Made by a program: the position numbers and the translations under genes. Shown piece after piece: positions 6,409-55,292 of a stretch of DNA of 64,000 nucleotides. Each line of letters begins with the position of its first letter. Positions within the stretch are counted from its first letter, which is position 1. The notes under the pieces are model-generated. The model was not told the origin of the DNA. It saw only the letters and a program-made list of their open reading frames with translations, and searched no databases. The stretch comes from Saccharopolyspora gloriosae (GTDB taxonomy: Bacteria > Actinomycetota > Actinomycetes > Mycobacteriales > Pseudonocardiaceae), in contig NZ_JACHIV010000001.1 of assembly GCF_014203325.1 (NCBI RefSeq), positions 558,001 to 622,000 of the forward strand, written 5' to 3'.

Positions 6409-6640
6409 TCGGGTGGCGGAACCTCAGTGGCTTCCTCGCGAGGACAGCTTTTCCCTCGCGGAGCCACTCGGGAAAAAGATCCCGCAGCGAGGAAGCCACT
6501 GAGAACCCGCGGGTGGTCGGCTTCTTGACGTGGGCCATGTGCTTCGCACATACAGGCACGGCTTCGCCGCAAGGCAGGCTTGCTTCGCAGCCCAACTGCA
6601 CGGCTTCGCCGCAAAGGCACGGCCTTCGGCCGCTGGGTGA
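6409..6640 (+). repeat. Palindromic intergenic element, copy 1 (core inverted)
   Basis: The copy has an 81-nt hairpin at 6423-6503 with arms CTCAGTGGCTTCCTCGC and GCGAGGAAGCCACTGAG. Flanks read GGCGGAAC on the left and AACCCGCGG on the right, as in copies 3, 4 and 6. The core between the arms, however, is in the opposite orientation to those copies. A tail of mini-hairpins with TTC loops follows, including ATGTGC-TTC-GCACAT and GGCTTCGCC or GGCCTTCGGCC units. It lies between two divergent genes, unlike the other copies, and is 4 nt shorter in the loop. Confidence 0.85.
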
Positions 6641-6755
6641 GCGTGGTTTGTTCGTTCTTCGTGGGTTTGCTGCGGCTCTTGGGGGAGCGGGGTCACGGCT
6701 GTGGGGGTTGTCGGCGTGGTAGATACCTCTGTGCCCGTTCTATGAGGAGGAACTC

Positions 6756-7718
6756 GTGGTCGATCGTCGACGTGCCCGCCGTAGCTGTCTGGCCGTGCCC
6801 GGCTCCAGCGCGAAGATGATCGACAAGGCGCGCGGGCTGGCGGTGGACTCGTTCTTCCTGGACCTGGAGGACGCGGTCGCGCCGCTGGCGAAGGCCGAGG
6901 CGCGCGGCCGGGTGGCTGCGGCGCTCAACGAGGGCGGCTGGGACGGCAAGATCCGTTCCGTACGGGTCAACGACCTCACCTCGGAGTGGACCTACCGGGA
7001 CGTGGTGGAGGTCGTCGAAGGCGCCGGGGCGAACCTGGACACGATCGTGCTGCCGAAGGTCTCCAGCCCCGACCACGTGCGCTGGCTGGACCTGACGCTG
7101 ACCCAGATCGAACGCGCCACCGGCCTGGAAGTCGGCCGGATCGGCATCGAAGCGCAGATCGAGGACGCGCGCGGCCTGGTCGAAGTGGACGCGATCGTCG
7201 CCGCCTCGCCCCGGATCGAGGCGCTGATCTTCGGCCCGGCCGACTTCATGGCCTCGATCAACATGCGGTCGATGGTCGTCGGCGAGCAACCGCCCGGCTA
7301 CGACGTGGGCGACGCCTACCACTACGTGCTGATGCGGATGCTGATGGCGGCGCGGGCGCACGACGTGCAGGCCATCGACGGCCCCTACCTGGCGATCAAG
7401 GACGTGGACGGGCTGCGCCGGGTCGGCGGCCGGTCGGCGGCGCTGGGCTTCGACGGGAAGTGGGTGCTGCACCCGGCGCAGGTGGACGCGGTCAACGAGC
7501 TGTTCTCGCCGCGCCAGGAGGACTACGACCACGCGGAGAACGTGCTGGCCGCCTACGACTGGCACACCTCGGAGGCGGGCGGCAAGCGCGGTGCGGCGAT
7601 GCTCGGCGACGAGATGATCGACGAGGCGTCCCGGAAGATGGCGCTGGTCATCGCGGGCAAGGGGCGGGCGGCGGGCATGTCCCGCACCGACGAGTGGACG
7701 CCGCCCGCCGCCGGTTGA
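6756..7718 (+). CDS. CitE-like HpcH/HpaI aldolase (malyl-CoA lyase-like)
   Basis: This 320-residue TIM-barrel lyase belongs to the citrate-lyase-beta/malyl-CoA lyase superfamily. It would make or cleave a C-C bond between acetyl- or propionyl-CoA and glyoxylate, or act on a similar CoA thioester. Landmarks are LAVPGSSAKM near the N-terminus, FFLDLEDAVAP (metal-site region), IGIEAQIEDARGL and LIFGPADFMASI, and GKWVLHPAQVDAVNELF near the C-terminus. A GAGGAGG at 6744-6750, 5 nt upstream, fixes the GTG start. A malyl-CoA or beta-methylmalyl-CoA lyase role is the best guess from length and motifs, but substrate assignment in this family is unreliable. Confidence 0.8.
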   Translation: MVDRRRARRSCLAVPGSSAKMIDKARGLAVDSFFLDLEDAVAPLAKAEARGRVAAALNEGGWDGKIRSVRVNDLTSEWTYRDVVEVVEGAGANLDTIVLPKVSSPDHVRWLDLTLTQIERATGLEVGRIGIEAQIEDARGLVEVDAIVAASPRIEALIFGPADFMASINMRSMVVGEQPPGYDVGDAYHYVLMRMLMAARAHDVQAIDGPYLAIKDVDGLRRVGGRSAALGFDGKWVLHPAQVDAVNELFSPRQEDYDHAENVLAAYDWHTSEAGGKRGAAMLGDEMIDEASRKMALVIAGKGRAAGMSRTDEWTPPAAG

Positions 7719-7936
7719 GCCGCCGGGTTCGAGCGGAGCGGCGGGGCGACGCGCCCGGCCCCGGAACACCCGTCGCGGCGGCCTGCCTGGGCACGCGCGT
7801 CCTGACGCCCGTGTGGACGATCCCGGAGCCGGTGCGGCGCGGTACGTTCTGATCAAGAGCGATCGTCGGGTTCCTCCGCGGAACGAGCCGTGCCGAGGTC
7901 TTTCCCGGCGTGCGAGTCGACCGAGGGGGCGGCGGC
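7719..7936. other. Intergenic spacer before the patatin gene
   Basis: These 218 bp separate two same-strand genes. No clear terminator or gene was seen; it presumably holds the patatin promoter. Confidence 0.3.
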
Positions 7937-10900
7937 ATGGCCGACGAGGACCTGACCCGCGGCGACCCCGCCGAGAGCGGGGCGACCGGCGACGGGCGGG
8001 CCGGCGGTGGCACCACGGGGGAGGCGGCCGGTCGGCATCGGGCCGAAGGCGGCGGAGCGGGCGCGGACTCCGGCGGCGAACCCGCTTCCGGCGCGGGCGA
8101 CGCCGAGAACGACCAGGAACTCCGCTTGGCGCTGGCGATGCGCGGCGGGGCCAGCCTCGCGGTGTGGATCGGCGGCGCCGTCGCCGAGATCGACCTGCTG
8201 CGCTGCGCGACGTCCGGCACGCCCCCGCCCGGGACGGCGAAGCCGAACCCGGAACCGGACGACGAGCACCCGTGGGCGGCGCTGGCCGGGCTCGCGGGCT
8301 ACGACTCGGTGTCCGTGGACGTGCTGGCCGGTGCCTCGGCGGGCGGGCTGAACGCGACCCTGCTGTCCGCCTCGATCGTCTACGGCATGCCGTTCGAGGA
8401 CATGCGCGAGCTGTGGGTGCGCCTGGCGGACCTGGAGGCGATGTGCCGCGCGGTGCCGAAGTTCTGGCAGCGCAGGCCGGATTCCCTGCTGGAGGGCGAC
8501 GCCTACTTCCGCGCCGAGCTCGCGAGGCTGATCAGCGAGCTGACCCCGGCCCCCGAGGACGCCCGCAACCTGGGCGACCGGCTGGACCTGCTGCTGACCG
8601 CGACCCTGCTGGACCCGGTGCTGGAGCGGCACTTCGACGGCAGGTCGGGGCCGCTGACCGAGCAGCGCCGCACCGCCTCGTTCCGCTTCCGGCACCGGGG
8701 CCGCTCCGGGCAGCCGCTGTCGGACTTCGGCACCGGCAAGGAATTCCCGGCGACCGCGCTGCGCCTGGCGCAGGCCGCACGCGCCACCTCGTCGTTCCCG
8801 TTCGCCTTCGAACCGGCGCAGGTGCACTCCAGCACCGGCGCGCCGCCACCCGGCGAACCGGACATGTTCGGGGTGTTCTCCGAGAACACCGCGGATCCCC
8901 GGCCGTTCCGGGTGATCGACGGCGGGGTGCTGGACAACATCCCCGTCACCGCGGCGGTGGAGGCGATGGCCGCGGTGCCCACCGAACGCCCCAGCGCGCG
9001 CTGGCTGCTGTACCTGAACCCGGAACCGGAGACCGTCGGCGAAGGCAGGCCGCTGAGCCGCCAGCTGGCGTTGCCGGTGGTGTCCACCGCGATGAGCGCG
9101 CGCATGTCGCAGGAGTCGCTGCTGGCCGACATCCACGCGCTCGACGAGCACAACGCCGCCGTGCAGCGCACTGAACTGCGCCGCAGATCGGTGTTCGCGC
9201 CGCTGCTGCCCGCGGCCCCGGCGGAGCGGGAAGCGATGCTGTTCTCCCAGGCCGGGCAGGTCGAGGCCGAGTACGCGGTGGTGCGCGCGGAGCTCGACGC
9301 CCAAGCGGTGCTGCGGTTGCTGGTGGAGCCGGCGGGCACTGAGGACGGCAGGCTGCTGCCGCCGGTGGTCGGGGACCCGCTGGAGGGCTGGTCGCCGCAG
9401 GTCCGCACCGTGCTGGGCAGGCGGCTGGCGGCGGGGCTGGCCGAGCTAGCCGCGGCGGAACCTGATCGGGTCTTCGACGACGTGCGCGGACTGTCGTCCG
9501 GGGTGCAGGAATGCTTGGACTGGGCGCGGGACATCGGCCGCTGGGCCAGCCCGGAGCAGCTGCCGTTGATCGGCCGCTGCAAGGCGGCGCTGTACCGGCT
9601 GCGCACGTTCGCCGAGGTCCTGGAGGGGCACGCGGACCGCTACTGGATCAACGGCGCCGTCCTGGAACCGATCGTCGAGCTGGGCGAGCTCGCGGACTGG
9701 GTGCTGCGGGTCGCCGAGCGCCGCGAGCGGATGCAGCACCGGTTGCCGTCGCCGGTGCGACCGCTGCTGGGCGCGGTGCTCAACGAGGTCGAGCAGGACG
9801 GCCGCTTCCAGCGCGCGCTGGAGGAGTTCGCCGCCGAACTCGCGTCCATGGCCGACACCTCGGGCGCCGACGCGGTGCCGTGGGACGAGAACGGGGTGGA
9901 CGCGGTGGCCGAGGCCCGCGTCGTGCTGCACCGGATCGCGGACCGGATCGCCGCCGCCGCGCCGCCGCGCACCCACGTCGAATCCCCCGCGCAGATCGGC
10001 TACGGCCTGCTGGAGCGCACCGAGCGCCGCCCGGCCGTGCTGCGCGCGCTGGTCGTGCTCACCGCGCCGCTGGACGTGGGTCGCTCGCCGGGCGACCGGA
10101 TCAACTTCCTCCGGGTCGTGGGGGACGCGCCGTCACCGCTGCCGTTCGACGCGCTGCGGGTGGCCCGCGAACTGCGCGTCGAGGACAAGGTGCGCGGCGG
10201 CGACCTGGGCAACTTCGGGGCGTTCCTGTCCGCGCGGTGGCGCGCGAACGACTGGATGTGGGGCCGGTTGGACGCGGCGTCGGCGCTGGTCGGACTGCTG
10301 CTGGTGCCCGCCCGGCTGCTGCGCCACAGCGCCGGGCTCGGCCCGGAGGGCATCGCGCAGCGGCTGCGCGCCATCGTCACCACCCCGACCCGCGCGGAGC
10401 TCGGCGACGTGGCCGGCTCGGAGCGCTGGCAGAGCTTCCTGACGGAGCTGTGGGAGCGGCGGGCCGACCAGGTGCGGGCGGAGCTGGCGGCGATGTTCGC
10501 CGACCCCGTCGACGAGCACCCGCTGACCGAGACGAAGGCGCTGGTCGTGGAGCGGCTGCACTGGACGATCGCGGCGCAGGAGCTGCCCTTCGTGGCCACC
10601 GTCGCGACCGGCGCCGATCCGGGCGAGCCCCGGCTGCCGGACATCCCGGAGCCGCAGCGGCTCACCCGGGACGTGCGGCGCTACGCGGTGGGGCGCCAGC
10701 GCGTCGAGGACCTCGGCGAGCCCCGGCTCGCTTCGGTCGCGACCAGGTCGGCCCTGCTGGCCTACCGGGCGGTCCGACCGGGCACGGCCGGGGTGCTGCG
10801 GCTGCTCGGCCGAGTGGCGATGACCGTGGTCAAGCCGGTGCTGCTGCTGGTGGTGCTGGCCGTGGCGGCACCGCGGCGGGTGGCGCTGGTGCTCTTCCTC

Positions 10901-12654: not shown

Positions 12655-12733
12655 CCTGGAGGCAGGGACGATAGGGGACGAATCGGGCCCTTGCCGATCC
12701 TGCTAGGTAGTGCGCTCCACGGAGGTGTCAGCG

Positions 12734-13261: not shown

Positions 13262-13273
13262 GCCGGGCCGGGG

Positions 13274-28713: not shown

Positions 28714-28905
28714 GGGACCTTGCAGAACGATCTTCTGATCAGTGTCTTGTCAGCGGCGCAGCCGCTGAGCAGTGACCACGCACGCAAGACGACCACCGGC
28801 GGGTTCTCAGCGGCTTCCTCGCGAGGACAGCGATTTCGCTGTGTATGGACATACATGAGAAATCGATCCCGCAGCGAGGAAGCCGCTGAGGTTCCGCTGA
28901 GCGAC
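28714..28905 (-). repeat. Palindromic intergenic element, copy 2 (variant loop)
   Basis: An 85-nt hairpin lies at 28806-28890 with arms CTCAGCGGCTTCCTCGC and GCGAGGAAGCCGCTGAG. The loop differs from all other copies: GATTTC pairs with GAAATC and GTATG with CATAC, so the fold is kept with new sequence. The tail on the left holds CAGCGGC-GCA-GCCGCTG (type II tail). It lies between the convergent DUF3107 and DUF4873 genes. Confidence 0.85.
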
Positions 28906-28935
28906 CCGCTAAGCAGGTCATTCTGGAAGGGCTCC

Positions 28936-31956: not shown

Positions 31957-31989
31957 GTGCCTGCCTTCGCTCCCGCGTTCTGCGTTGGG

Positions 31990-32150
31990 GTCGGGTGGCG
32001 GAACCTCAGCGCTCTTCTCGCTGCGGGATCTTTTTCCCAAGTGGCTCCGCCACGAGGGAAAAAGCCGTCCTCGCGAGAAGGGCGCTGAGAACCCGCGGCG
32101 GTGCCGGTGGGCATGGTGGTCGCTGCTCAGCGGCTTCGCCGCTGACAAGA
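31990..32150 (+). repeat. Palindromic intergenic element, copy 3
   Basis: An 85-nt hairpin lies at 32005-32089 with arms CTCAGCGCTCTTCTCGC and GCGAGAAGGGCGCTGAG (one G-T wobble). It has a type II tail with CAGCGGC-TTC-GCCGCTG at 32128-32144. It lies between the convergent alpha/beta hydrolase and TetR genes. Confidence 0.88.
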
Positions 32151-32228
32151 AGAGGTTTGCACCGGGGCAGGTGCTAGGAGGCCGAGCCGTGTGGAGATCG
32201 CGGCTCGGCCTTCGTCGTCTTTCGGTGG

Positions 32229-35330: not shown

Positions 35331-36515
35331 ATGTCCGGCGATTCAGCCCAGGCAACGACGCTCCCGCCGCTCGTTGAGCCGGCGGCGGAGTTGACCAAGG
35401 AAGAGGTCGCGCGCTACAGCCGCCACCTGATCATCCCGGATGTCGGGATGGACGGGCAGAAGCGGCTGAAGAACGCGAAGGTCCTGGTGATCGGTGCCGG
35501 TGGCCTCGGCAGCCCGGCACTGCTGTACCTGGCCGCGGCCGGTGTCGGCACGATCGGCATCGTCGAGTTCGACGCCGTCGACGAGTCGAACCTGCACCGC
35601 CAGGTCATCCACGGCCAGTCCGACCTGGGCAGGCCGAAGGCGGAGTCGGCGCGCGACTCGATCGCCGAGATCAACCCGTTCGTCAAGGTCAACCTGCACC
35701 AGACGTACCTGTCCTCGGACAACGCGCTGGGCATCTTCGCCGACTACGACCTGATCCTGGACGGCACGGACAACTTCGCCACCCGGTACCTGGTCAACGA
35801 CGCCGCGGTGCTGGCGGGCAAGCCCTACGTGTGGGGCTCGATCTTCCGCTTCGAAGGCCAGGTCAGCGTGTTCTGGGAGGAGAAGGGCCCGAACTACCGG
35901 GACCTGTACCCCGAGCCGCCGCCGCCCGGGATGGTGCCGTCCTGCGCCGAAGGCGGCGTGCTGGGCATCCTGTGCGCCTCCATCGGTTCGATCATGGTCA
36001 CCGAGGCGGTCAAGCTCATCACCGGCATCGGGGAGACCCTCGTCGGCAGGCTGATGATCTACGACGCGCTGGAGATGAGCTACCGGACGGTCAAGATCCG
36101 CAAGGACCCGAACGCGGACAAGATCACCGAGCTGATCGACTACGAGGCGTTCTGCGGCGTCGTCTCCGACGACGCGCAGCAGGCGGCCGTGAACAGCACG
36201 ATCACGCCGCGCGAGCTCAAGGACAAGTTCGACCGGGGCGACAAGTTCCAGCTGATCGACGTCCGGGAGCCGCACGAGTACGAGATCGTCAAGATCGACG
36301 GCTCCACGCTGATCCCGAAGGACCGCATCCTCTCCGGCGAGGCGCTCGCGGAACTGCCGCAGGACCGGCAGATCGTGCTGCACTGCAAGTCCGGCGGACG
36401 CTCCGCCGAGGCCCTCGCGGCGCTGCACAAGGCCGGGTTCTCCGACGCCGTGCACGTCGGCGGCGGAGTCCTCGGATGGGCCAACGAAGTCGACACCAGC
36501 CTGCCTACTTACTGA
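35331..36515 (+). CDS. moeZ: MoeZ/ThiF-rhodanese sulfur-activating enzyme
   Basis: This 394-residue E1-like enzyme adenylates the C-terminal glycine of small sulfur carriers (MoaD/ThiS/CysO type) and transfers sulfur. The N-terminal ThiF domain has the nucleotide loop VIGAGGLGSPALLYLAAAG and the substrate region DGTDNFATRYLVND. The C-terminal rhodanese domain has active-site loop HCKSGGRS. The ATG at 35331 follows GGAGCTGGGAG. It corresponds to Rv3206c. It serves molybdopterin and other sulfur pathways in the cytoplasm. Confidence 0.93.
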   Translation: MSGDSAQATTLPPLVEPAAELTKEEVARYSRHLIIPDVGMDGQKRLKNAKVLVIGAGGLGSPALLYLAAAGVGTIGIVEFDAVDESNLHRQVIHGQSDLGRPKAESARDSIAEINPFVKVNLHQTYLSSDNALGIFADYDLILDGTDNFATRYLVNDAAVLAGKPYVWGSIFRFEGQVSVFWEEKGPNYRDLYPEPPPPGMVPSCAEGGVLGILCASIGSIMVTEAVKLITGIGETLVGRLMIYDALEMSYRTVKIRKDPNADKITELIDYEAFCGVVSDDAQQAAVNSTITPRELKDKFDRGDKFQLIDVREPHEYEIVKIDGSTLIPKDRILSGEALAELPQDRQIVLHCKSGGRSAEALAALHKAGFSDAVHVGGGVLGWANEVDTSLPTY

Positions 36516-36540
36516 TCGTTCCGGTCTTTTTGCTCGGGTG

Positions 36541-36850
36541 GTCGGGTGGCGGAACCTCAGGTGTCTTCTCGCTGCGGGATCTTTTTCCCAAGTGGCTCCG
36601 CCACGAGGGAAAAAGCTGTCCTCGCGAGAAGACACCTGAGAACCCGCGGGTGAGGACTTCTCGACGTGGGCTATGTGCTTCGCACATACAGGCACGGTCT
36701 TCGGCCGCAAGGCAGACTTCGCTTCGCTCGTCCACTGCACGGCTTCGCCGCAGAGGCACGGTCTTCGGCTGTGAGGCAGGCTTTGCTTTGCTTGCCCACT
36801 GCACGGCTTCGCCGTTAAGCACGGCCTTTGGTCGCTTGGTAGGCAGGGCG
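36541..36850 (+). repeat. Palindromic intergenic element, copy 4
   Basis: An 85-nt hairpin lies at 36556-36640 with arms CTCAGGTGTCTTCTCGC and GCGAGAAGACACCTGAG. It has the longest type I tail: ATGTGC-TTC-GCACAT, then at least five GGC/GCC or GGTC-type mini-hairpins up to about 36835. It begins 26 bp after the moeZ stop. The rest of the 564-bp gap (36851-37079) is G/T-rich with no gene seen. Confidence 0.88.
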
Positions 36851-40128: not shown

Positions 40129-43080
40129 TCACTCGTCGGTCGTGCTCGCGTCCGGGTCGGCGGGCCTGCGGCCCCGGTCGGTACCCCGCTGGATGGCCGA
40201 CATCAACGCCCGGATCTCCGCGGCGGAGCGGGATCCGGATTCCGCCCGCCGTTCGTCCTCGTCCGATTGCTCGCGGGCGAGCTCCGGCGCGAGGTTGGCC
40301 TGCTTGCGGCGGCGGGGGAGCGGAACCGCGGCTTCCTCGGGTTCCGACCCCGGATCGCCGTCCGGGCCGTTCGTGCTGTCGTCGGTGCTGTCGTTCGTGG
40401 TCGCGTCGCCATTGCCGGGCGACGCGGTGTCGGTGTTCGTGATCGGCCGGTGGCCGGTGGGATCGGTGGTCGCCGGATCCGCGTCCGCAGGCCAGGTGAC
40501 CTGGTCCGCGTTCCCGGCGGGATCCTCGGTCGGCCATGCCGCGTCGAGCGCGGATTCGTGCTGAATTCCGGGCTCGATCGGTTCCCCTCCGTCCGAACGG
40601 TAGCCGCGCTCCGCCGACGAGTCGTCGCCCGAAGCGGTGACGTCGGCTGAACGCTCGGGTGGCGTCCGAACCGGCTCGGAGTCCGCGTCCTCGGCCGCGG
40701 CGTCCGTTGGGTCCGAATCCTCCGTGTCGGGCGGCCAGGAGTGGTCGTCGGTGGTGAGTTCTCCGTCCGCGGCACCGGATTCCGGCTCGGGGACGTCCGG
40801 AGCGGGCTCGTCGGAGCCGATCGCTTCGAGTTCCGGGTCCGTGGTCTCGATGCTCGACGTGCTCGGCGTGGCGGGAACGTCGGACACCGCAGCGGAGTCC
40901 GCGTCGTCGGTGGTCGTCTCGTCGGAGTCCGTCTCGCCGGTGGCGGGGGAACTCCCGTGCTCGTCGTTCGCCGACGTGAACGGGTCGAACGCGGCGCGAT
41001 CCGCCTCCACCGGCTCGTCGGCGACGTCCGCGAGGTCGACGGATTCGGCCGCGGCATCGGCGGTCGCCGTCTCGTCCGGCTCGTGCCGCGGGTCGTCCCC
41101 GGAGGCCGACCGCACCCTCGGGAGCTGGGAGGTGTGCGCCTCGCCGGGATCGGGCTCGATGGGCTCCACGATCAGCTTCGCGGGCACCAGCACCGTCGCC
41201 CGGGTACCGCCGTAGGCGGAGGTGCGCAGCTCCACTCCGATGCCGTGGCGGTCGGCGAGCCGCGCCACCACGAACAAACCGAGCCTGCTGTCCGAGCGCA
41301 GCGCCATCGCGTCGAACTCCGGCGGGCCCGCCAGCATCGCGTTCGCCGCTTCCCGGTCGGTGTCGGCGATGCCGAGGCCGCGGTCCTCGACTTCGATCAC
41401 CACGCCGCGGGCGACGGTGTGGCTGTGCACGTTCACCCGCGATTCGGGCGGGGAGAAGGACGTCGCGTTGTCCAGCAGCTCCGCCAGCAGGTGCACCGTG
41501 TCGGCGACCGCGTCGCCGTGCAGCGCCAGATCCGGCGGTCGCTGCACGCGCACCCGCGCGTAGTGCTTCGTCTCGGCGACCGCGCTGCGCAGCACGTCGG
41601 CGAGCTCGATGGGGCGCGACCACCGGCGGCCCGGCTGCCCGCCGCCGAGGATGATCAGGTTCTCGGCGTTGCGGCGGGCGCGGGTGGCGAGGTGGTCGAG
41701 GCCGAACAGCAGGGCCATCCGGTCCGGGTCCTGCTCCTCGCGCTCCAGGCGGTCGATCATGGTCAGCAGCCGGTGCACCAGGGCCTGGCTGCGTCCGGCG
41801 ATGCCGAGGAAGACGGTGTGCACGCCCTCGCGGGCCTGCGCTTCCTGCACGGCAGCGGACACCGCGGTGCGCTGGGCGGTGTTGAAGGCCTCGGCGACCT
41901 GGCCGATCTCGTCGCGGCCGTAGTCGAGGTGCGCGACCTCGCGGTCGATGTCGACGCGCTCGCCGCGGCGCAACCGGGCCACGATCTCCGGCAGCTGCCC
42001 GCCGGCGAGCAGCAGGGTGTCGTCGCGGAGCCCGTTGAGCCGCCGGGACAGGCCGCGGGACACCCGCAGCGCGACGAGGATCGCGAGCAGCACGATCAGC
42101 AGCGCGACGACGCTGCCGATCGCGACCTGGATCAGGTTGCGGTCGCCCGCTTCCAGCCCGGCGGCGGCGGTGCGCTGCGCCTGCGTGGAGGCCAGCGTGG
42201 TGAGGTCGTCGGTGACGAGGTCGCTGGTGGTGAGCCAATCGGTCGCGTCGATGGCCGGTGCGTCGTCGTCCGGGCTCCACGGCCCGAGCTCGACGATCTG
42301 GTCCTCCAGCTCGGTGAGGTGCCGGAAGTGCGGCGTTGAGATGATCTTGGTGTACCGCGCCCGCACGTCGGGCGGGGCGGACGCGGCGCTGGACTCCAGC
42401 TCCAGGTGGTAGGCGCCGGTCAGGTGCGCGAACGCCCGGTGGTCGGCGGGCGTGAAGGTGCCGGTGCGCAGCCCGTCGGAAGCGAGCGACGCGGCTCGCG
42501 CCATCCGGTCCGCGGCGGTGAAGAACGCGTCGGCGCGCAGTCCGCCCTGGGTGACCGCGGAGTCCGGGAACAGCCGGGCCTGCGATTCGAACAGCGCGGA
42601 GCCCGCGTCGACGAAACCGTTGTAGTAGCCGTGGATCTGGGCCCGATCGGCCTGCATGCCGTCCACGCGGGCCCGCATCACGGGCAGTTCCGCGATGACC
42701 CGGTTGAGCGCGCGCATCCGGGCGGCGACCTCGTCCGGCGCCTGCTGCAGCGTCGGGTCCGCGGCGTCGCGCATCGCGGTCAGCGCCCGGTCGGTCGCCT
42801 CGCGCTGCTTGCCGAGCCGTTCGCCGGCGGAATCGGGGGCCGCGGCCTGCAGCAGGCTCAGCGTGCGTTCCTTCTGCGCGGAGGCCAGCACCCGCATCGC
42901 GGGCAGCGACACGTCGCGCACGCCGGAGGCGATGCCCCGCAGGTGGAACCCGTTGTAGAGGGTGATCCCGCTGATGATCGACCAGAGCACCAGCAGCGCG
43001 ATGCCGGGTATCAGGACCACGCCGTAGAGGCGATCGCGGATGCTGCGGCGGCCTTTGCGCCAGTCATCGAGCTTCTGCAC
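40129..43080 (-). CDS. Nitrate-sensor-type histidine kinase-like protein (CvnA-like)
   Basis: This is a 983-residue membrane sensor. Span 1 is at about 20-42 and a helical NIT-type sensor domain follows (QKERTLSLLQAAAPDSAGER). Span 2 is at about 320-342, then a HAMP-like segment. The dimerisation region lacks a clear phospho-accepting His, and the HATPase domain follows (N-box ELLDNATSFSPPESRV, G1 VEDRGLGI, G2 SRLGLFVV). The last 300 residues are an acidic Asp/Glu/Ser/Thr-rich disordered tail with a basic end. GTG 43080 is chosen. It heads a conservon-type operon with Roadblock and DUF742 genes. Confidence 0.87.
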   Translation of the reverse strand: MQKLDDWRKGRRSIRDRLYGVVLIPGIALLVLWSIISGITLYNGFHLRGIASGVRDVSLPAMRVLASAQKERTLSLLQAAAPDSAGERLGKQREATDRALTAMRDAADPTLQQAPDEVAARMRALNRVIAELPVMRARVDGMQADRAQIHGYYNGFVDAGSALFESQARLFPDSAVTQGGLRADAFFTAADRMARAASLASDGLRTGTFTPADHRAFAHLTGAYHLELESSAASAPPDVRARYTKIISTPHFRHLTELEDQIVELGPWSPDDDAPAIDATDWLTTSDLVTDDLTTLASTQAQRTAAAGLEAGDRNLIQVAIGSVVALLIVLLAILVALRVSRGLSRRLNGLRDDTLLLAGGQLPEIVARLRRGERVDIDREVAHLDYGRDEIGQVAEAFNTAQRTAVSAAVQEAQAREGVHTVFLGIAGRSQALVHRLLTMIDRLEREEQDPDRMALLFGLDHLATRARRNAENLIILGGGQPGRRWSRPIELADVLRSAVAETKHYARVRVQRPPDLALHGDAVADTVHLLAELLDNATSFSPPESRVNVHSHTVARGVVIEVEDRGLGIADTDREAANAMLAGPPEFDAMALRSDSRLGLFVVARLADRHGIGVELRTSAYGGTRATVLVPAKLIVEPIEPDPGEAHTSQLPRVRSASGDDPRHEPDETATADAAAESVDLADVADEPVEADRAAFDPFTSANDEHGSSPATGETDSDETTTDDADSAAVSDVPATPSTSSIETTDPELEAIGSDEPAPDVPEPESGAADGELTTDDHSWPPDTEDSDPTDAAAEDADSEPVRTPPERSADVTASGDDSSAERGYRSDGGEPIEPGIQHESALDAAWPTEDPAGNADQVTWPADADPATTDPTGHRPITNTDTASPGNGDATTNDSTDDSTNGPDGDPGSEPEEAAVPLPRRRKQANLAPELAREQSDEDERRAESGSRSAAEIRALMSAIQRGTDRGRRPADPDASTTDE

Positions 43081-43429
43081 TACGTCCCACCCGTGTGTGC
43101 CGGTGCGCGCGACGGAGCGCGTCGCGGCGGTCTCGGCGGCATGCGAAGCACCACGCCGTCGGGCGAGGTGTCGTGCTGAGGGAGACGGGTTTGCGGGGTG
43201 TGGCGATCGGACGCTCGCGTCCCGGTCCCCCCGATTCGCTTTTCCCGCATGAAACCGCAGGGATTTTAGCACGCCAAGATCAACTGGTGGAACGGCGGAT
43301 CAGCATTGCGCCGTACGCCCCAACGGAAACTGGGACGCACGGCGCAATGGAGCGTGGAGTTCGAGGGCGACAGCCCTCGCACCTTCATTCTCTTGTCAAC
43401 GCCCGACCGGCGAAGCCTGTCCGCCCACC

Positions 43430-43716
43430 CCGAAAGCACCTTGCGGCGTAGCCGTGCCTTGGGCGGCGAAGCCAGCCTGCCTCGCGGCCGAAGGCCGTGC
43501 CTCGCGGCGAAGCCGTGCCTCGGACGAGCGAAGCGAAGTCTGCCTGGAGGCGAAGCCGTGCCTGTATGTGCGAAGCACATAGCCCACGTCGAAAAGCCCT
43601 CACCGGCGGGTTCTCAGTGAGCCTCTCGCGAGGACGGCTTTTTCCCTCGTGGCGGAGCCACTTGGGAAAAAGATCCCGCAGCGAGAGGCTCACTGAGGTT
43701 CCGCTACCCGGACACC
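43430..43716 (-). repeat. Palindromic intergenic element, copy 5
   Basis: An 85-nt hairpin lies at 43613-43697 with arms CTCAGTGAGCCTCTCGC and GCGAGAGGCTCACTGAG. The type I tail of at least five TTC-loop mini-hairpins extends to the left (43440-43590). It lies 21 bp after the chitinase stop, reading outward from it, within a 657-bp gap to the kinase. The remaining 43081-43429 holds the kinase promoter region and no gene. Confidence 0.88.
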
Positions 43717-43737
43717 AAAGCAGAACGAGCCCGACAA

Positions 43738-44736
43738 TCAGCCAGCAAACCCGGCAACGATCGAGGAGAACTCCCACGGCTGCTGCTCGGCGCCGCTGCA
43801 GCTGCTGACGTCGCCGCTGCCGTCGCAGGGCCGGTCGCGGTTGACCGACCAGAAGGTGAACCGGCCGAGGCCCTTCTCCTTGGCGTAGTCGGCCATCTTC
43901 TGGAACGCGGCCACGTCGACGTGCTCGGCGGGCTGGTCGGTGTTGCCGTTCATCGACGAGATGCCGACGTGCGCGTAGGCCGCCGCGTCGTCGTAGCCGA
44001 AGGCCGTCTTGACCTGTTCCTTCAGCGCGTCGGTCGTGGTGATCGTGTCCTGCGCCATGTCGGTGCCGTTGAAGTCGAACGGCATCTGCGTCCACACGTC
44101 GATGTCGGCGCCGATCTCGGCGGCCTTGGCGATCATGGCCTTGCCGTTCTCGTTCGGCCCGGTGGTGGTGGTGCCGAACGTGACGACGGTCTTGAGGCCG
44201 GGGTTGGCCTCCTTCGTGATCTTCAGCGCTTCGATCACGCGGTCCCGGGAGGCGGGGGTCTCGACCTCGGTGGATTCGATGTCGATGTCGATGGCCTTGA
44301 GGCCGTAGGCGTCGATCACCTTCTGGTAGGCGCCCGCGAGGGACTGCGCGTCGGTGCAGACCTCGCCGAGCTTGTTGCCGCTCCAGCCGCCGATCGAGGG
44401 GATCACGTCGCCGCCGCCGGCGCGGATCTCGTCGATGGTTGCCTTGTCCTGGCCGTCGAGCGGACGGGTGCCGTCCCAGGCGGGGTTGCAGCTGCCGTCG
44501 GCGTTGATGAACGCGAGCGTGAAGTCCTTGATGCCGGTCGCGCCCTGCACCTCGGACGGCGCCGGCGGGTTGCCCCAGCCGTTGTAGAGGTAGGGCGAGG
44601 CCGCGACGGGGCTCTCGGCCTGGGGCGCGACGTCCTGCTTGGCGCTCAGCGCGGGAACGGCGGTCAGGGTGGCCGCACACGCGACGGCGACACCGGTACC
44701 GGCCAGGGTGAGCATGTTCTTGCGGAGCTTGCCCAC
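43738..44736 (-). CDS. Secreted GH18 chitinase-like protein
   Basis: This 332-residue exported glycoside hydrolase has a signal peptide (1 to about 33, ending VPALSA). The GH18 barrel begins with [10 protein letters not shown] and has the catalytic DxDxE as AIDIDIES, plus the [11 protein letters not shown] strand and VWTQMPFDF region. GTG 44736 is fixed by GGAGGACCA. It resembles the small-domain GH18 chitinases of actinobacteria that lack extra chitin-binding modules. It probably digests chitin or related glycans outside the cell. Confidence 0.88.
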
Positions 44737-45007
44737 TGGTCCTCCTTCGGGGATCTTGTTCGCCACGGCGGGGATTCGTGGCTCAGCGGGACTTTCCCAG
44801 AACCTGAAATTGGTTCGTACCACCAAAAGGAACATCGGCGTGCTCCCTCTGGGGTCTTGGCGTGTTTTCTCTGTCGCTTTCTGTATCAGCCCTGGCCAGC
44901 GAATTGTGGAGTCCACAGAGGAGTTTTTGCGCCGCGTTCACAGCAGAATGTGAACGGCGTGGGAAATTACCGTTATTCCGGCTCGCTCGGCCCGGCCTGC
45001 GCGATCG
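44737..45007. other. Divergent promoter region, chitinase/adnA
   Basis: 271 bp, locally AT-richer than its surroundings, with no gene seen. It should hold both promoters. Confidence 0.35.
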
Positions 45008-48259: not shown

Positions 48260-48358
48260 CGGGCGGTATGGCCTGCGTCACGATCGGCTCGCTAACCTGT
48301 GATCCAGGGCGACGGCTCGATCAGCCGTGCGCGGGTCGATCGCGAAGAGGTGGTCGCT

Positions 48359-49579: not shown

Positions 49580-49667
49580 CACTCTCGGTGAGGCATGTTC
49601 TGTGCCCCACCGCGCGGGGGTTGCGAACGTTCCCCGAACCCTTCGGCTTCGGGCCGAACATGACGGC

Positions 49668-49952
49668 ATGAGCGAATCCGCAGTTCCGTCCCCGCGTCCG
49701 ATCCGCGTCCCGGTGCGGTACCGCACCGGGGAAGCAGGGGAGACGAGCCGCGTCGTGCACATGGCCGTGTGGACGTCCTCGGCGGTCTACCTCGCGATGT
49801 GCGGCGCGGAGCTCGACGGGCATCGGGCTGAGGTCGTCGTGAGCGGAATGCCTTGCATGCCTTGCGTTCGCGAGCTCGCGCTGCGCGAGGACCGTCCGGA
49901 CCGAAGCGGTCGGGCGGTGGTGGCCCCCGCGGATTTCCGCCTGCCCGGGTAG
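49668..49952 (+). CDS. Small protein next to XRE regulator, unknown
   Basis: This 94-residue protein begins with a Pro/Arg-rich head, then RTGEAGETSRVVHMAVWTSS, VYLAMCGAELDG and SGMPCMPCVREL. The CxxC and preceding Cys could bind zinc. It is the kind of small ORF that accompanies XRE regulators in these bacteria. ATG 49668 has no clear Shine-Dalgarno. No function can be assigned. Confidence 0.65.
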   Translation: MSESAVPSPRPIRVPVRYRTGEAGETSRVVHMAVWTSSAVYLAMCGAELDGHRAEVVVSGMPCMPCVRELALREDRPDRSGRAVVAPADFRLPG

Positions 49953-50154
49953 GCGGTGCGACCCGGTTCGTCGTCGTGACCCCCCGACCTGGCGGCGAGC
50001 CGCGCCCGGCCGGTGACCGCACCCCTCCGCGGTCCCGGCCGGGCATCCACCCGGCGAACGCGGAGTGATGTTCGCGGTCGGCTCAGGGCGGGTTCTCGAA
50101 AGATGACGCAGCGTGCGGCTACTTTGGTGGGGGTTCGGAATCGAAAGGGGAGTC
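49953..50154. other. Spacer in the adnA-adnB insertion
   Basis: 202 bp, no gene or clear signal apart from the ribosome site of the next gene. Confidence 0.3.
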
Positions 50155-50508
50155 ATGGCGCAGCACTCGAACGGCCTGCACCACCACGGATACGTCGAAC
50201 GCTCCACGCTCTCGCACGCGTTGAGCGCGGCGGAGCGGCGGATGCTCGATCCCGACGAGGTCATGCACTCACCGGAAGAGGTCGCGGCCTGGCTCGCGGG
50301 CACCTTGCGCGCGGCGATGGGGTTGACCGAGGACGAGGTCGGGTTCACCGACGAGACCGAGATCTGGCTGACCGAGTCGCGTCGCGGCGAGACGATCGTG
50401 ACCGGGCTCAACGACGGCCCGACGATCACCGCCGAGGCCGTCTACGACAGCAACTGCGAGTGCGAGCGCCAGCTCAAGCCCGTCCCCCCGTCGAAGAAGC
50501 GCCGCTGA
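50155..50508 (+). CDS. Conserved-looking 117-residue protein, unknown
   Basis: This soluble protein has a His-rich start (HSNGLHHHGYVERSTLSHAL), an acidic middle (EVAAWLAGTLRAAMGLTEDE) and a basic end (PVPPSKKRR) with CEC. ATG 50155 is well supported by AAAGGGGAG. No family is recognised. It lies 78 bp before adnB. Confidence 0.7.
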   Translation: MAQHSNGLHHHGYVERSTLSHALSAAERRMLDPDEVMHSPEEVAAWLAGTLRAAMGLTEDEVGFTDETEIWLTESRRGETIVTGLNDGPTITAEAVYDSNCECERQLKPVPPSKKRR

Positions 50509-50586
50509 GCGAAGTGGGCCGGGCGCCGGTCGGGCCGGTCGTGGCGGCGTGCTACAACCGGCGCTGACCTGCCGGAACAGCCTGGA

Positions 50587-53500
50587 GTGGAGCGACGCTT
50601 GCCCGAACGGATCAGTCCGCACCGCATCGCGCAGGGGCTGGGGCTGCACCCGCCGACTCCGGAGCAGGCCGCGGTGATCGCGGCGCCCGCCGAACCGGCG
50701 CTGGTCGTGGCGGGCGCGGGCGCGGGCAAGACCGAGACGATGGCGGCCCGCGTGGTGTGGCTCGTCGCGAACCGGCTCGTCACCCCCGAGCACGTGCTCG
50801 GGTTGACGTTCACCCGCAAGGCCGCCCGGCAGCTCGCGGACCGGGTACGGGCCCGGCTGCGCAGGCTCGCCGGGTCCGGGCTGCTGGACGAGGTGGACCC
50901 GAGCGGGCTCCTGCGCAACCAGGTGCTGGCCGAAGAGCCGACAGTGCTGACCTACCACGCCTACGCGGGCCGGCTGGTCGGCGAGCACGGGCTGCGAATC
51001 CCGGTGGAGCCGGGCGCGCGGCTGCTCACCCAGACCGCGTCCTGGCAGCTCGCGCACCGCGTCGTGTCGACGTGGACGGAGGACCTGGACACCGAGAAGG
51101 TTCCCTCCACCGTCACCGGGTACCTGCTGTCGCTCGCCGGTGAGCTGGCCGAGCACCTGGTGCGGCCGGATCAGCTGCGGGAGCACGCCGAACGGCTGTG
51201 CCGGACCATCGAGGACGCGCCGCGGGCGAAGCGGCAGCGCGCCGAACTCCCCCAGGACCTCACGAAGATCATCGCCGCGCAGCGGTTGCGGGCCGCCCTG
51301 CTGCCGCTGCTGGAGACCTACGCGCAGCAGAAGCGGCGCGAGGCGGCGATGGACTTCGCCGACCAGATGTCGCTGGCGGCGCTGCTGGCCACCGACCACC
51401 CGGAAGTCGTCGCGGGCGAACGGGAACGCTACGGCGCGGTGCTGCTCGACGAGTACCAGGACACCGGCCACGCGCAGCGGGTGCTGCTGCGGGCGCTGTT
51501 CGGCGGGGTGACCGCGGGAGCCGACCCGCTGCCCGTCACGGCCGTCGGCGACCCGGCGCAGGCCATCTACGGCTGGCGCGGGGCGAGCGCGGCGAACCTG
51601 CCGCGGTTCACCACCGACTTCCCCCGCGCCGAGGACGGCGAACCGGCACCCGCGCGGCGCTACGGCCTGCTGACGAGCTTCCGCAACCCGCCCGAGGTGC
51701 TCAGCCTCGCCAACGCCGCCTCCGAACCGCTGCGCGCCGCCGGGCTGGAGGTCGACGAACTGCGCGCCCGCGACGGCGCGGGAGCCGGGGACATCCGCGC
51801 CGCGCTCGTCGAGGACGTGCGGGTGGAGCGCGACTGGGTCGCCGACCGGATCGCCGAGCAGTGGCACGCGGTGCTCGACGAGAAGGGCTCCCCGCCGACG
51901 TCGGCGGTGCTGGTGCGGCGCCGCTCCGACATGGCGGGCTTGGCGGGCGCGCTGCGCGAACGCGGGCTGCCGGTGGAGGTCGTCGGCCTCGGCGGACTGC
52001 TCGACGAACCCGAGGTGCGCGACCTGGTGAGCGCGTTGCGGGTGCTGGTGGAACCGCTGGCCGGTTCCGCCGCCATGCGGTTGCTGACCGGTGCCCGCTG
52101 GCGCCTCGGTGCCGCCGACATCGCCGCGCTGTGGGACCGGGCTCGGCGGCTCGGGCCCGCCGCGGAGGAGACCGGTCCGGACTCGGTCGACGACGTGCTG
52201 CCGGGGGAGCACGCGGAACAGGCCGGGCTGGTCGACGCGCTCGACGACCCCGGCCCGCCGGAGGCCTACTCGGCGGCGGGCTACGAGCGGATCCGGTCGC
52301 TCGGCAAGGAATTGGTGCAGCTGCGCCGCAGGCTGGACCAGCCGCTGCCGGAGCTGGTGGCCGACGTCGAGCGGACCTTGCTGCTCGACATCGAAAGCCT
52401 CGCCCGCCCGGCCGGGGCGGGACGCATCCACCTGGACGCGTTCGCGGACGTGGTCACCGACTTCGCCACCGCCAGCCCCTCCGCGCCGCTGTCGGCGCTG
52501 CTGGACTACATCACCGCCGCCGAACGAGCCGAGGACGGGCTGGAACCGGGCGAGGTCGAAGTGGCCGAGGACCGGGTGCAGGTGCTCACCGTGCACGCCG
52601 CGAAGGGCCTCGAATGGGAGGTCGTCGCGGTCCCGCACCTGGTGGACCAGGTCTTCCCCGGCCGCAGGCACTCCGGGTCGTGGCTGACCTCGGTGACCGA
52701 GCTGCCCGCGACGATGCGCGGTGACTCCCAGGACCTGCCCGCGCTCGACCTGGACCGGCTCACCGGAATGGACCGCAAGGAGATCAGCGACGAGCTCAAG
52801 CGCCACGACGGCGAGTTCGAGGACCGGCGGCTCACCGAGGAGCGGCGGCTGCTGTACGTGGCGCTGACCCGGTCCGAACGGGTGCTGCTGCTGTCCGGGC
52901 ACTGGTGGCAGGAGGGCGGCAAGAAGCCGAAGGGCCCGTCGGACTTCCTCACCGAGCTGGCGGACGTGCTGCGCGGGACCGGCGCCGGCGACATCGGCCG
53001 GTGGGTGGAGGAACCGGCCGACGACGCGGAGAACCCGCTCGCGGACGCGTTGCGCTCGGTGGAGTGGCCGGCGGATCCGCTGGGGCCGCGGCGCAGCGCG
53101 GTGGCCGCCGGTGCCGATCTGGTGCGGGCCGCGATGGTCGCGGCGCGAACCGAACGGTCCACTGTGGAGTCCGGCGGGGTCGAGCGCGCGGCGGATTCCG
53201 TTCCGCCGCAGGGCGATTCCCCCGTGCCGCCGGGTCACCAGCCCGAGCCGCCACCCGACGACGCGGAGTACCTGCCGCCGGACGAACCGCCGGACGACGA
53301 GGAGCCCCCGCCGCCGGAGGACGACCCCGGTCCGCCGCCGGACGACGCGGACTCCCCGGACGACGAGTCGGAACCGCCGGTGGACGCCGAAGACGACGAG
53401 CTGAGCTGGGCCCGCGACGTCGACGTGCTGCTCGCCGAACGGGAAGCGGCGGCGCAGCGCCGCGAACACGTCGTGCTGCCCGGACACCTCTCGGTGAGCC

Positions 53501-54087
53501 GCCTCGTCGAACTAGCCGCCGACCCGGAAGCCCTCGCCCGCAGGCTGCGCCGCCCGCTGCCGATGCCGCCCAACCCGATGGCCCGCCGCGGCACCGCGTT
53601 CCACGCGTGGCTCGAACACCGCTTCACCTCCAGCGCGCTGCTCGACCTGGACGAACTGCCCGGCTCCGCCGACGAGACCGCCCCGCCGCAGGACGACCTC
53701 ACCGGGCTGCAAGACGCGTTCCGCCGCGGCTCCTGGGCCGACCGGGTGCCGCACAAGGTGGAGGTGCCGTTCGAGACCCAAGTCGCGGGAATCGTGCTGC
53801 GCGGCCGGATGGACGCCGTGTTCGCCGACGCCGACGGCGGCTGGACCGTGCTGGACTGGAAGACCGGCGCGGTGCCCGCCGACGACCAGGTGCCCGCGCT
53901 CGCCGTGCAGCTCGCCGCCTACCGGCTCGCCTGGGCGGAACTGGCCGGCGCGCCGCTGGAGAAGGTCCGCGCGGCGTTCCACTACGTCCGTCACGACACC
54001 ACCCTGCGCCCGGCCGATCTCTTCGACGCGGATGGACTCCGCGAACTGATCGACTCCGTTCCGGACTCCGGGAGGTTCTCCGGGTGA
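50587..54087 (+). CDS. adnB: AdnB subunit of AdnAB helicase-nuclease
   Basis: This 1,166-residue protein is the main motor of the DNA break-resection complex. UvrD motifs: LVVAGAGAGKTETMAARVVW (I), LTFTRKAARQLADRV (Ia), LLDEYQDTGH (II, canonical DExQ), DPAQAIYGWRGA (III), LTVHAAKGLEWEVV (V) and LLYVALTRSE (VI). The RecB-like nuclease follows, with RGTAFHAWLEHRF and TVLDWKTGAVP. Between motor and nuclease (about 870-940) is an acidic Pro/Asp/Glu linker that looks disordered. GTG 50587 is used; TTG 50599 is possible. Confidence 0.9.
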   Translation: MERRLPERISPHRIAQGLGLHPPTPEQAAVIAAPAEPALVVAGAGAGKTETMAARVVWLVANRLVTPEHVLGLTFTRKAARQLADRVRARLRRLAGSGLLDEVDPSGLLRNQVLAEEPTVLTYHAYAGRLVGEHGLRIPVEPGARLLTQTASWQLAHRVVSTWTEDLDTEKVPSTVTGYLLSLAGELAEHLVRPDQLREHAERLCRTIEDAPRAKRQRAELPQDLTKIIAAQRLRAALLPLLETYAQQKRREAAMDFADQMSLAALLATDHPEVVAGERERYGAVLLDEYQDTGHAQRVLLRALFGGVTAGADPLPVTAVGDPAQAIYGWRGASAANLPRFTTDFPRAEDGEPAPARRYGLLTSFRNPPEVLSLANAASEPLRAAGLEVDELRARDGAGAGDIRAALVEDVRVERDWVADRIAEQWHAVLDEKGSPPTSAVLVRRRSDMAGLAGALRERGLPVEVVGLGGLLDEPEVRDLVSALRVLVEPLAGSAAMRLLTGARWRLGAADIAALWDRARRLGPAAEETGPDSVDDVLPGEHAEQAGLVDALDDPGPPEAYSAAGYERIRSLGKELVQLRRRLDQPLPELVADVERTLLLDIESLARPAGAGRIHLDAFADVVTDFATASPSAPLSALLDYITAAERAEDGLEPGEVEVAEDRVQVLTVHAAKGLEWEVVAVPHLVDQVFPGRRHSGSWLTSVTELPATMRGDSQDLPALDLDRLTGMDRKEISDELKRHDGEFEDRRLTEERRLLYVALTRSERVLLLSGHWWQEGGKKPKGPSDFLTELADVLRGTGAGDIGRWVEEPADDAENPLADALRSVEWPADPLGPRRSAVAAGADLVRAAMVAARTERSTVESGGVERAADSVPPQGDSPVPPGHQPEPPPDDAEYLPPDEPPDDEEPPPPEDDPGPPPDDADSPDDESEPPVDAEDDELSWARDVDVLLAEREAAAQRREHVVLPGHLSVSRLVELAADPEALARRLRRPLPMPPNPMARRGTAFHAWLEHRFTSSALLDLDELPGSADETAPPQDDLTGLQDAFRRGSWADRVPHKVEVPFETQVAGIVLRGRMDAVFADADGGWTVLDWKTGAVPADDQVPALAVQLAAYRLAWAELAGAPLEKVRAAFHYVRHDTTLRPADLFDADGLRELIDSVPDSGRFSG
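53158..53168. repeat. Palindrome TCCACTGTGGA in adnB
   Basis: It is read as Ser-Thr-Val-Glu with the rare ACT codon, just before the acidic linker. Same set as the sites at 17770, 39970 and 47483. Confidence 0.45.
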
Positions 54088-54097
54088 CCTGCGTAGT

Positions 54098-54285
54098 GGG
54101 CCGGGTGGCGGAACCTCAGCTGCTTCCTCGCTGCGGGATCATTTTTCCAAGTGGCTCCGCCACGAGGAAAAATGCTGTCCTCGCGAGGAAGCAGCTGAGA
54201 ACCCGCCGGTGGTGACCTTGCTCAAGCTGGTCACTGCTCAGCGGCTTCGCCGCTGACAGGAGAATGACCAAAAGATCATTCTGCG
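54098..54285 (+). repeat. Palindromic intergenic element, copy 6
   Basis: An 85-nt hairpin lies at 54115-54199 with arms CTCAGCTGCTTCCTCGC and GCGAGGAAGCAGCTGAG. Its inner stem is ATTTTTCC/GGAAAAAT, changed on both sides relative to the other copies. The type II tail has CAGCGGC-TTC-GCCGCTG and AGAATGA/TCATTCT. It begins 10 bp after the adnB stop. Confidence 0.88.
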
Positions 54286-54412
54286 CGGACCCCTTGGGGG
54301 CCTCTGCGACTCCTCGTTGCGGGGTCGATGCACTGTCGAGGTTCTGTGGTTGGCGACATGGCGTAGATCCACACCTTCGTGTGGCGGATCTTGTGGTCGC
54401 CCGTTCGGACGC

Positions 54413-55042
54413 ATGACGATGCTCGGGATGGAGCAGAACACGGAGTGGAAACTCAACACGCCGCCCGAAGCCGAGGTGCTCGTCGACACCGACGTGCTGT
54501 CGCTGCGGGCGCCGCTGGTCCGGGTGCACCGCGACGACACGGGCACCTGGTCGTTCAGCGGACCGGAAGGTGAAACCCGGCCCACCAAGCGCACCATGCT
54601 CAGCGCCGTCGTCGGGGCCTGGCCGCACGTGGCCGCGCTGTCCGACCTCGACGTGGGCGGCGGCGTCGTGTGGTCCTGGGCGAAGCACGGCTGGGCCGGT
54701 GAGTTCGAGTGCCGCTGCGGCAACTGCGACCAGCCCGTCGCCGCCGACCTCGACCGGCGCACCTGGCCACCGGACCTGCACCCCAACACCCTGATCAGCG
54801 TGGAGAAGACCACGCTGTCCGGGCAGGTGCCGCTCACCGACATCCTGTCCACGCCAGGCGGAATCGCGTTCCTGGGCCCAGGCGACCACCGCCGCACCAG
54901 CGAACTGATGACCCCCGTAGCCGTGGCCAACGTGATCCGCCGCTGGCCGCACACCATGCAAGCACTGCGAGCCGCCAAGGAAGGCCGAGGCCTCGGCTGG
55001 AACCCCCACGGCATGAACTGGCACGAATACGTCCTGGCCTAA
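54413..55042 (+). CDS. Protein of unknown function with CxCxxC
   Basis: This 209-residue protein has a possible zinc cluster in FECRCGNCDQPV. Tryptophans are evenly spread (GTWSFSGPEGETR, VVWSWAKHGWAGEF). ATG 54413 is used; ATGs at 54419 and 54428 are in the same frame. No family is recognised. A small hairpin (CCACAC-CTTC-GTGTGG, 54369-54384) lies just upstream. It is flanked by two copies of the palindromic element. Confidence 0.65.
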   Translation: MTMLGMEQNTEWKLNTPPEAEVLVDTDVLSLRAPLVRVHRDDTGTWSFSGPEGETRPTKRTMLSAVVGAWPHVAALSDLDVGGGVVWSWAKHGWAGEFECRCGNCDQPVAADLDRRTWPPDLHPNTLISVEKTTLSGQVPLTDILSTPGGIAFLGPGDHRRTSELMTPVAVANVIRRWPHTMQALRAAKEGRGLGWNPHGMNWHEYVLA

Positions 55043-55057
55043 CCCCAGGCCCAATAC

Positions 55058-55292
55058 CTCGCGGCCAAATGCCCGCCGTGCGGCCGAAGGCCGTGCCGTG
55101 GGCGGCGAAGCCAGCCTGCCTCGCGGCCGAAGGCCGTGCCTGTATTCGCGCAGCGAATAGCCCACGTCAAGAAGCCGACCACCGGCGGGTTCTCAGCGTT
55201 CTTCTCGCGAGGACAGCTTTTTCCCTCGTGGCGGAGCCACTCGGGAAAAAGATCCCGCAGCGAGAAGGACGCTGAGGTTCCGCTACCCGGAC
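55058..55292 (-). repeat. Palindromic intergenic element, copy 7
   Basis: An 85-nt hairpin lies at 55192-55276 with arms CTCAGCGTTCTTCTCGC and GCGAGAAGGACGCTGAG (one G-T wobble). The type I tail to the left has TATTCGC-TGC-GCGAATA where other copies have an ATGTGC/GCACAT stem, again changed on both sides. It lies between convergent genes. Confidence 0.88.

Follow-up and report, generated by a model that had tools for sequence, protein, structure and literature searches.

A variable-armed hairpin of Saccharopolyspora gloriosae appears to form the middle of a larger mobile element that mostly stands after stop codons

A stretch of 64,000 nucleotides of the Saccharopolyspora gloriosae genome (contig NZ_JACHIV010000001.1, positions 558,001 to 622,000 of the forward strand; hereafter the window) holds seven intergenic hairpins of one design, in which the fixed box CTCAG is followed by seven variable bases (N7), CTCGC and a core, and then by GCGAG, the opposite arm (N7′) and CTGAG. 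What is this repeat, how did it come to lie between these genes, and what keeps its two arms matched while their sequence changes from copy to copy? A preliminary description of the window had treated it as a seven-copy element, bounded by GGAAC and AACCC and belonging to no named family. In the present study, the hairpin (termed H1) is found to occupy the middle of an element that measures about 200-400 bp and has flanking modules; shorter derivatives of it also exist.

The hairpin and the larger element

All seven hairpins were verified in the window with both pairs of boxes (Table 1). No two copies carried the same N7, six were 85 nt long and the copy at 6423 was 81 nt, and both of the G-T wobbles that had been claimed in the arms were found. 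The top stem described as common to all copies is incomplete in the copy at 6423, in which an inner part of 47 nt has the opposite orientation to the outer flanks. Such inversion of the core against the outer arms occurs in at least three copies from two genera (window 6423-6503, L004 and G010:C9:113450). By contrast, the core stem TTTTTCCC/GGGAAAAA, which had been presented as part of the shared design, is replaced by GATTTC/GAAATC in the copy at 28806 and by ATTTTTCC/GGAAAAAT in that at 54115; the TTTTTCCC core is one among several core types of H1.

Nor do GGAAC and AACCC mark the limits of the repeat. About 30 nt on each side also belong to it, often together with a second hairpin or a hairpin array; when the GGAAC strand is read, the conserved upstream part is TTGCKTWGGTGGTCGGGTGGC-like and the downstream part CGCSGGTGGTCNGNTTGCGTACGTGG-like, in other genera as well. 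What the preliminary description missed is that the hairpin belongs, as a module, to a larger mobile element, which stands after stop codons and comes in two subtypes. In subtype A, H1 is followed by a run of small TTCG hairpins, and in subtype B by a second hairpin, GCTCAGCGGCTTCGCCGCTGAC. Terminal inverted repeats were seen in one of the two, subtype B, at its ends. The terminal repeat CTGTCTTTGATCTTG gave 83 genome matches with at most 2 mismatches, compared with 1 in the control. When 30 of these 83 loci were fetched, an inverted partner was found no more than 420 bp away at 20 of them, while 10 were unpaired; the paired loci amount to 17 distinct elements of 61-392 bp, some of which lack H1. 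Other terminal repeats are CAGAAYGAYC (copy 2 and sister genome G002) and GAACTCCTTGCAGAAGG (genome G018), and by eye these ends still pair.

Besides copies without H1, there are core-deleted copies that form near-perfect palindromes (CTCAGCGCCCTCCTCGCGAGGAGGGCGCTGAG); derivatives of these kinds lie at 42915 of the joined stretches of G018, at 133369 of the first 400 kb of G002, and at 125273 of S. gloriosae. Clean excision of H1 between GAACC direct repeats was also considered, but no such scar was present at the inspected sites, which held H1-less and core-deleted derivatives instead. Inspection by eye revealed no consistent pairing of the left flank with the right flank. Next to copies 4 and 5 (window 36650-36850 and 43355-43600, respectively), and in the G002 counterparts, there are runs of alternating TTCG mini-hairpins (GGCACGGCTTCGCCGC, GGCAGGCTTGCTTCGCAGCCC); their number differs between sister species, and they possibly form a second, fast-expanding repeat family. 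Copy 7 (window 55280-55390) and loci L020 and L046 carry a longer left extension, GAGCCTTCCCCGG...GTGGTTGC...GGATTGCTTCCACGGCT, which is a further repeat module.

The seven copies are real, yet they are a subset of the whole: an exact pattern detected at least 278 copies in the 6.83-Mb S. gloriosae genome (153 forward and 125 reverse), and a reversed-pattern control detected none. An origin of the repeat by chance is excluded. The same pattern found 16 copies each in genomes G004 and G005. Every collecting pattern demanded CTCAG and CTGAG, and those behind the genome counts and the scan of named species demanded further boxes as well, so that the invariance of these boxes is partly built in.

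Saccharopolyspora is placed in the Pseudonocardiaceae, a family that includes antibiotic producers. When a model of the hairpin was searched across this family, as had been proposed, matches (E <= 1e-5) were obtained in 28 of 110 sampled genomes and 12 of 46 genera, leaving 82 genomes without a match; in a sample of the class outside the family, none of 245 genomes matched (E <= 1e-6). Under strict filters, no more than 32 candidates from each genome were scored in the family search, and no more than 14 in the class search. Among the matches listed (80 of at least 120), the genera named were Saccharopolyspora, Amycolatopsis, Halopolyspora, Halosaccharopolyspora, Sciscionella and Pseudonocardia. 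The viral contigs, plasmids and phages searched held no match to the element, which speaks against a phage or plasmid origin. An Rfam scan of the window gave 0 matches at the gathering score, and copy 2 gave only a chance-level match to MIR1846 (E 3.1), so that no curated Rfam model of an RNA family fits either. The claim that the repeat has no named family also held in the literature searched, most subscription papers lying outside that search: no named repeat of this kind was found for these bacteria. The review PMC10969869, in the part available, named no such repeat, and Actinobacteria, Streptomyces, Saccharopolyspora and Pseudonocardia were absent from its main text.

Empty sites, turnover and placement after stop codons

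The preliminary description had suggested that sister strains be inspected for empty sites. Such sites were found for copies 2, 3 and 6, which relative to sister genome G001 (93-96% identical to S. gloriosae) are discrete insertions of 218, 206 and 218 bp. At the empty sites, the terminator-like hairpin of the neighboring gene stays in place, as judged by eye. Moreover, the alignment with sister genome G003 runs through all seven window sites, where no gap is large enough for the element. Given that sister genomes are without the element at some sites, the element is mobile.

Table 1. Copies of the element in the window, with strand and state in sister genomes.
Copy	Feature	Position	Strand	Remark
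1	Hairpin H1, 81 nt, inverted inner core	6423..6503	+	between divergent genes
1	Inserted stretch as compared with G003	about 6382-6684	+	weak alignment
2	Entire insertion of 218 bp, subtype B, with hairpin 28806-28890	28718..28935	-	absent from G001, G002, G003
3	Insertion of 206 bp, right side of subtype B, with hairpin 32005-32089	31965..32170	+	absent from G001, G002, G003
4	Subtype A, hairpin 36556-36640, right end approximate	36516..36850	+	absent from G003
5	Subtype A, hairpin 43613-43697, low end approximate	43355..43737	-	absent from G003
6	Subtype B, 218-bp insertion, hairpin 54115-54199	54075..54292	+	absent from G001, G002, G003
7	Subtype A, hairpin 55192-55276	55106..55515	-	rough extent, weak alignment to G003

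Where sites are occupied in more than one species, their content turns over. Comparison of 400 kb of S. gloriosae with G002 revealed nine shared occupied sites (seven in the same orientation and two in the opposite one); N7 differed at all nine, a few of the arms being unpaired, and the subtype differed at four of the seven same-orientation sites, the two subtypes thus occupying the same sites in different species. Copies 4 and 5 are both present in G001 and G002 with other arms. At copy 4, N7 is GTGTCTT in S. gloriosae, CGTCCTT in G001 and TGGTCTT in G002; at copy 5, it is TGAGCCT, CGTCCTT and TTGGTCT, respectively, and each of these arms is paired. The site of copy 7 corresponds to an opposite-orientation copy in the same intergenic region of G001 and G002. 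Some N7 alleles were enriched in single species (CGTCCTT in 7 of 27 G001 copies, TTGGTCT in 5 of 18 G002 copies, and CGCCCTC in 26 of 39 G018 copies), and others, such as CGGCTTC, were common to several species. The simplest reading of this turnover is re-insertion at the same gene ends or recombinational replacement.

The placement of the element was examined with 44 copies, taken from S. gloriosae 0-400 kb, the window and the syntenic 400 kb of G002 (shared sites being counted in both), and with gene calls from a simple codon-usage predictor made for this analysis rather than a published tool. As many as 33 of the 44 copies started no more than 60 nt downstream of a co-directional stop codon, compared with 9.8% of 12,000 intergenic points drawn at random; the p value of about 1e-24 treats all copies as independent, although those at shared sites are linked. 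Only 1 of the 44 lay between divergent genes, where 28% of the random points fell. These data demonstrate placement behind stop codons, with the GGAAC strand reading in the sense of the upstream gene. In the window, three copies start immediately past a stop codon: copy 2 after that of its high-side gene, with the second hairpin at its low end, copy 4 after the TGA of the open reading frame (ORF) ending at 36515, and copy 5 after that of the minus-strand ORF 43738-44916. In G018, 36 of 39 re-found copies followed a co-directional gene, with a distance of 23-57 nt for 30 of these. The terminal repeat of this genome gave 19 forward matches; at 8 of them a predicted stop codon overlapped the first two bases, and at 6 more it was 4-8 nt away. 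Copies of G018 also pointed with replication (38 of 41, assuming an origin at the contig start); for the re-found copies, 36 of 39 did so, compared with about 61% of coding bases in the fetched stretches (p about 1e-5).

Covariation of the arms

To the question of whether the arms change together, an alignment of 36 diverse copies from several genera gave a clear answer. In this alignment, 98.2% of cells were paired and 13 pairs had changed on both sides. A check of the significance of covariation, which had been recommended for the arms, yielded a score of 0.360 compared with 0.111 for shuffled alignments, and none of 500 shuffles scored as high; when the partner was shifted along, pairing fell to 43-52%. 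The helix also continues outward (GCGG/CCGC), with a compensatory change in two sequences. Covariation of the element is thereby demonstrated, and pairing is mostly retained even though the N7 of a given site changes from one sister species to another. The preliminary description had attributed the pairing to selection or to hairpin copying. Covariation far above that of shuffles bears out the general statement, and either of the two causes may be at work.

Genome G018, in which one allele dominates, is informative about these causes. Its copies showed nine one-sided changes, six paired double-sided changes and one unpaired double change, and the six paired doubles compare with about 0.07 expected if sites mutate independently. 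The double-change alleles were each present in one or two copies, and because they are so confined, copying from arm to arm fits better than selection followed by spread. The double changes of G018 therefore lean towards copying, without proving it. Chimeric arms were also encountered, for example CTGTCTT with the partner of CGGCTTC, and these indicate recombination between copies.

Mismatches were scored on the GGAAC strand over 183 copies, after 6 of 189 with fewer than 12 of 17 pairs had been dropped (the same cut was applied to the per-species and double-change counts). Pooled mismatches comprised 115 A.C, 14 G.T and 36 others, and 51 of the 115 A.C mismatches were at one position. In S. 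soli, S. elongata, sp. HNM0986, S. shandongensis and A. bartoniae, A.C exceeded G.T by 38 to 0. This is as if the complementary strand had kept G.T wobbles, and we take it as a hint only. The view that the antisense strand is the folded form, taken from the 115:14 excess, was cut back, the excess being present only outside S. gloriosae and its nearest sisters.

Explanations for the movement and the matched arms

We consider it probable that the hairpins are the central module of a non-autonomous mobile element of the Pseudonocardiaceae, resembling a miniature inverted-repeat transposable element (MITE), that is kept folded as a single strand and whose arms are corrected or selected to match. 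We infer that an enzyme supplied in trans would recognize and move the element as a folded single strand, either RNA or single-stranded DNA. The enzyme would read the fixed boxes CTCAG and CTCGC and the internal loop GAGGACAG/ATCCCGCA, and N7 and the terminal repeats would need only to pair. A one-sided change would often be copied to the other arm by template switching within the hairpin, or else be selected to match; alleles would spread via recombination between copies and re-insertion at the same gene ends. Adjacency to stop codons would result if a motif like TGA were the target and insertions that disrupt genes were lost.

Several observations weigh against this explanation. No clean target-site duplication was seen at the compared insertion borders, which are blurred by divergence. 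Owing to the divergence of the DNA between genes, several borders aligned poorly, the lowest score being 76 for 323 bases; two sets of border alignments misplace gaps in places, and of these one was left unused and the other served solely to show absence. Perfect outer stems are not universal, being present in 45 of 57 copies of S. gloriosae, 17 of 27 of G001, 15 of 18 of G002, 31 of 39 of G018 and 0 of 8 of S. elongata. The six double changes of G018 represent at least four distinct ones, and five of the six are at a single position. S. gloriosae, G001, G002 and G018 together gave 21 A.C to 16 G.T mismatches, which makes the strand argument weak, and the replication bias was measured in G018 alone, the 16 listed copies of G005 showing no obvious one by eye. 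As for an enzyme, RVT_1 had 0 matches in S. gloriosae, G002-G005 and G018 (G001 has one), and Y1_Tnp had 0 matches (E<=1e-3) in S. gloriosae, G001-G003 and G018. Finally, no transposase (Pfam) was the first inward gene beside the 10 unpaired CTGTCTTTGATCTTG repeats, and no autonomous copy was seen there.

The first inward gene at all 10 of these unpaired repeats was read towards the repeat. The genes encode a permease, an ADP-ribosylglycohydrolase, DHDPS, MarR, an FAD-binding protein, an AAA helicase-like and a weakly phytase-like protein, and three have no Pfam family. A parent insertion sequence (IS) sharing the terminal repeat was accordingly not found among the 30 fetched loci. A search for Y2_Tnp (IS91-like) gave no match in 10 genomes, but its control was also silent everywhere.

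A classical MITE is a less likely, though serious, alternative. In such an element, an IS transposase would read the terminal repeats by sequence, and H1 would be passive cargo, paired by template-switch correction alone. The copies do resemble MITEs in being short, free of a transposase gene, numerous, polymorphic for presence (discrete insertions of 206-219 bp) and accompanied by deletion derivatives, with terminal inverted repeats in subtype B; partners of the terminal repeat at 61-392 bp, including H1-less copies of 61 and 110-115 bp, core-deleted palindromes, and double-sided changes that occur in single copies are all consistent with this alternative. However, the terminal repeats vary among copies and genera, as do the internal arms, and yet keep pairing (for the terminal repeats, as judged by eye), and the element sits at the 3′ ends of genes and in their sense. 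Neither a target duplication nor a parent IS was seen, nor was there a transposase beside the unpaired repeats of S. gloriosae, the search for protein families having covered the loci of this genome and not those of G018.

A bolder form of the single-strand explanation is tentative and has a fairly low probability. It holds that both the ends and the internal arms are recognized by fold and not by sequence, that the element moves as a self-folded single strand and inserts at stop codons, aligned with both gene and replication, that the enzyme belongs to a class not yet tied to mobility, the host having no RVT_1 or Y1 match, and that the stems drift freely because the arms serve as mutual templates.

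It is unlikely that the hairpin is instead a functional module of 3′-untranslated regions, such as a terminator, an mRNA stabilizer or a structured RNA, which is selected at gene ends and covaries through its RNA function. The position just after stop codons across many genes and genera, the strong stems, the near avoidance of divergent sites, and the way in which the boxes and the internal loop are kept from genus to genus (an effect that the search patterns partly produce) would all be expected of it. Against it, sister species lack the element at the same genes, where by eye a terminator-like hairpin remains, and the load is uneven, with 278 copies in one genome and 16 in each of two others and with 82 of 110 family genomes lacking a match. 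The upstream genes look unrelated by eye, and in other genera the genes around copies look mutually unrelated from their sequence starts. Furthermore, in lineages having a mismatch bias, it favors the strand antisense to the gene.

Retrotransposition of an antisense RNA by a reverse transcriptase, in the manner of a retron or a short interspersed element (SINE), is very unlikely. The distance between the stop codon and the 3′ end of the antisense strand is nearly constant whereas the other end is variable, and both the lack of a visible target duplication and the two-hairpin layout would suit such a process. With no RVT_1 match in S. gloriosae, G002-G005 or G018, and one in G001, a retron, SINE-like element or group II intron acting via a host reverse transcriptase was rejected or weakened, and likeness to retron non-coding RNA fails on the same count. 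Group IIC introns target terminators, inserting beside terminator-like hairpins, and the element is similar in adjoining such hairpins; unlike them, it has no RVT_1 in S. gloriosae and no Rfam match in the window. Integron attC sites have a folded structure with variable arms, as the element does, but its copies are scattered over the genome and not set in cassette arrays.

ERIC/RU and the pneumococcal BOX/RUP/SPRITE repeats are also modular intergenic repeats that form hairpins, RU elements being likened to MITEs; they belong to other bacteria and are set apart here by description, not by sequence. Neither arm covariation nor stop-codon adjacency is known for them. Least likely of all is a REP/BIME/REPIN system moved by a RAYT (Y1) transposase: the element shares with it mobile intergenic palindromes in hundreds of copies, but consists of an 85-nt hairpin, not one of 20-40, inside about 200-400 bp, and Y1_Tnp matches, though present in G004, G005, G010 and G017, are lacking in S. 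gloriosae, G001-G003 and G018. REP sequences are defined, in PMC3733652, as 20-40 bp palindromes with a GTAG or CGTC tag, and H1 has GGAAC/AACCC at its foot, the tag being judged by eye.

The element is an abundant repeat family for which the searches found no name, and which, judging from copy number and placement, probably occupies the 3′ ends of well over a hundred S. gloriosae genes. Its copies form a natural archive of matched changes in the two arms; with the sister species as controls, the upkeep of palindromes, by selection or by arm-to-arm copying, thus becomes directly testable. It also points to a putative mobilizing enzyme that prefers gene ends.

Two further features of the window were noted. 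A tRNA-Arg (CCG) gene at 8843-8926 is the sole tRNA found there by ARAGORN. Repeated overlapping matches to G001, G002 and G003 at 60170-63480 suggest tandem duplicated or repetitive coding sequence.

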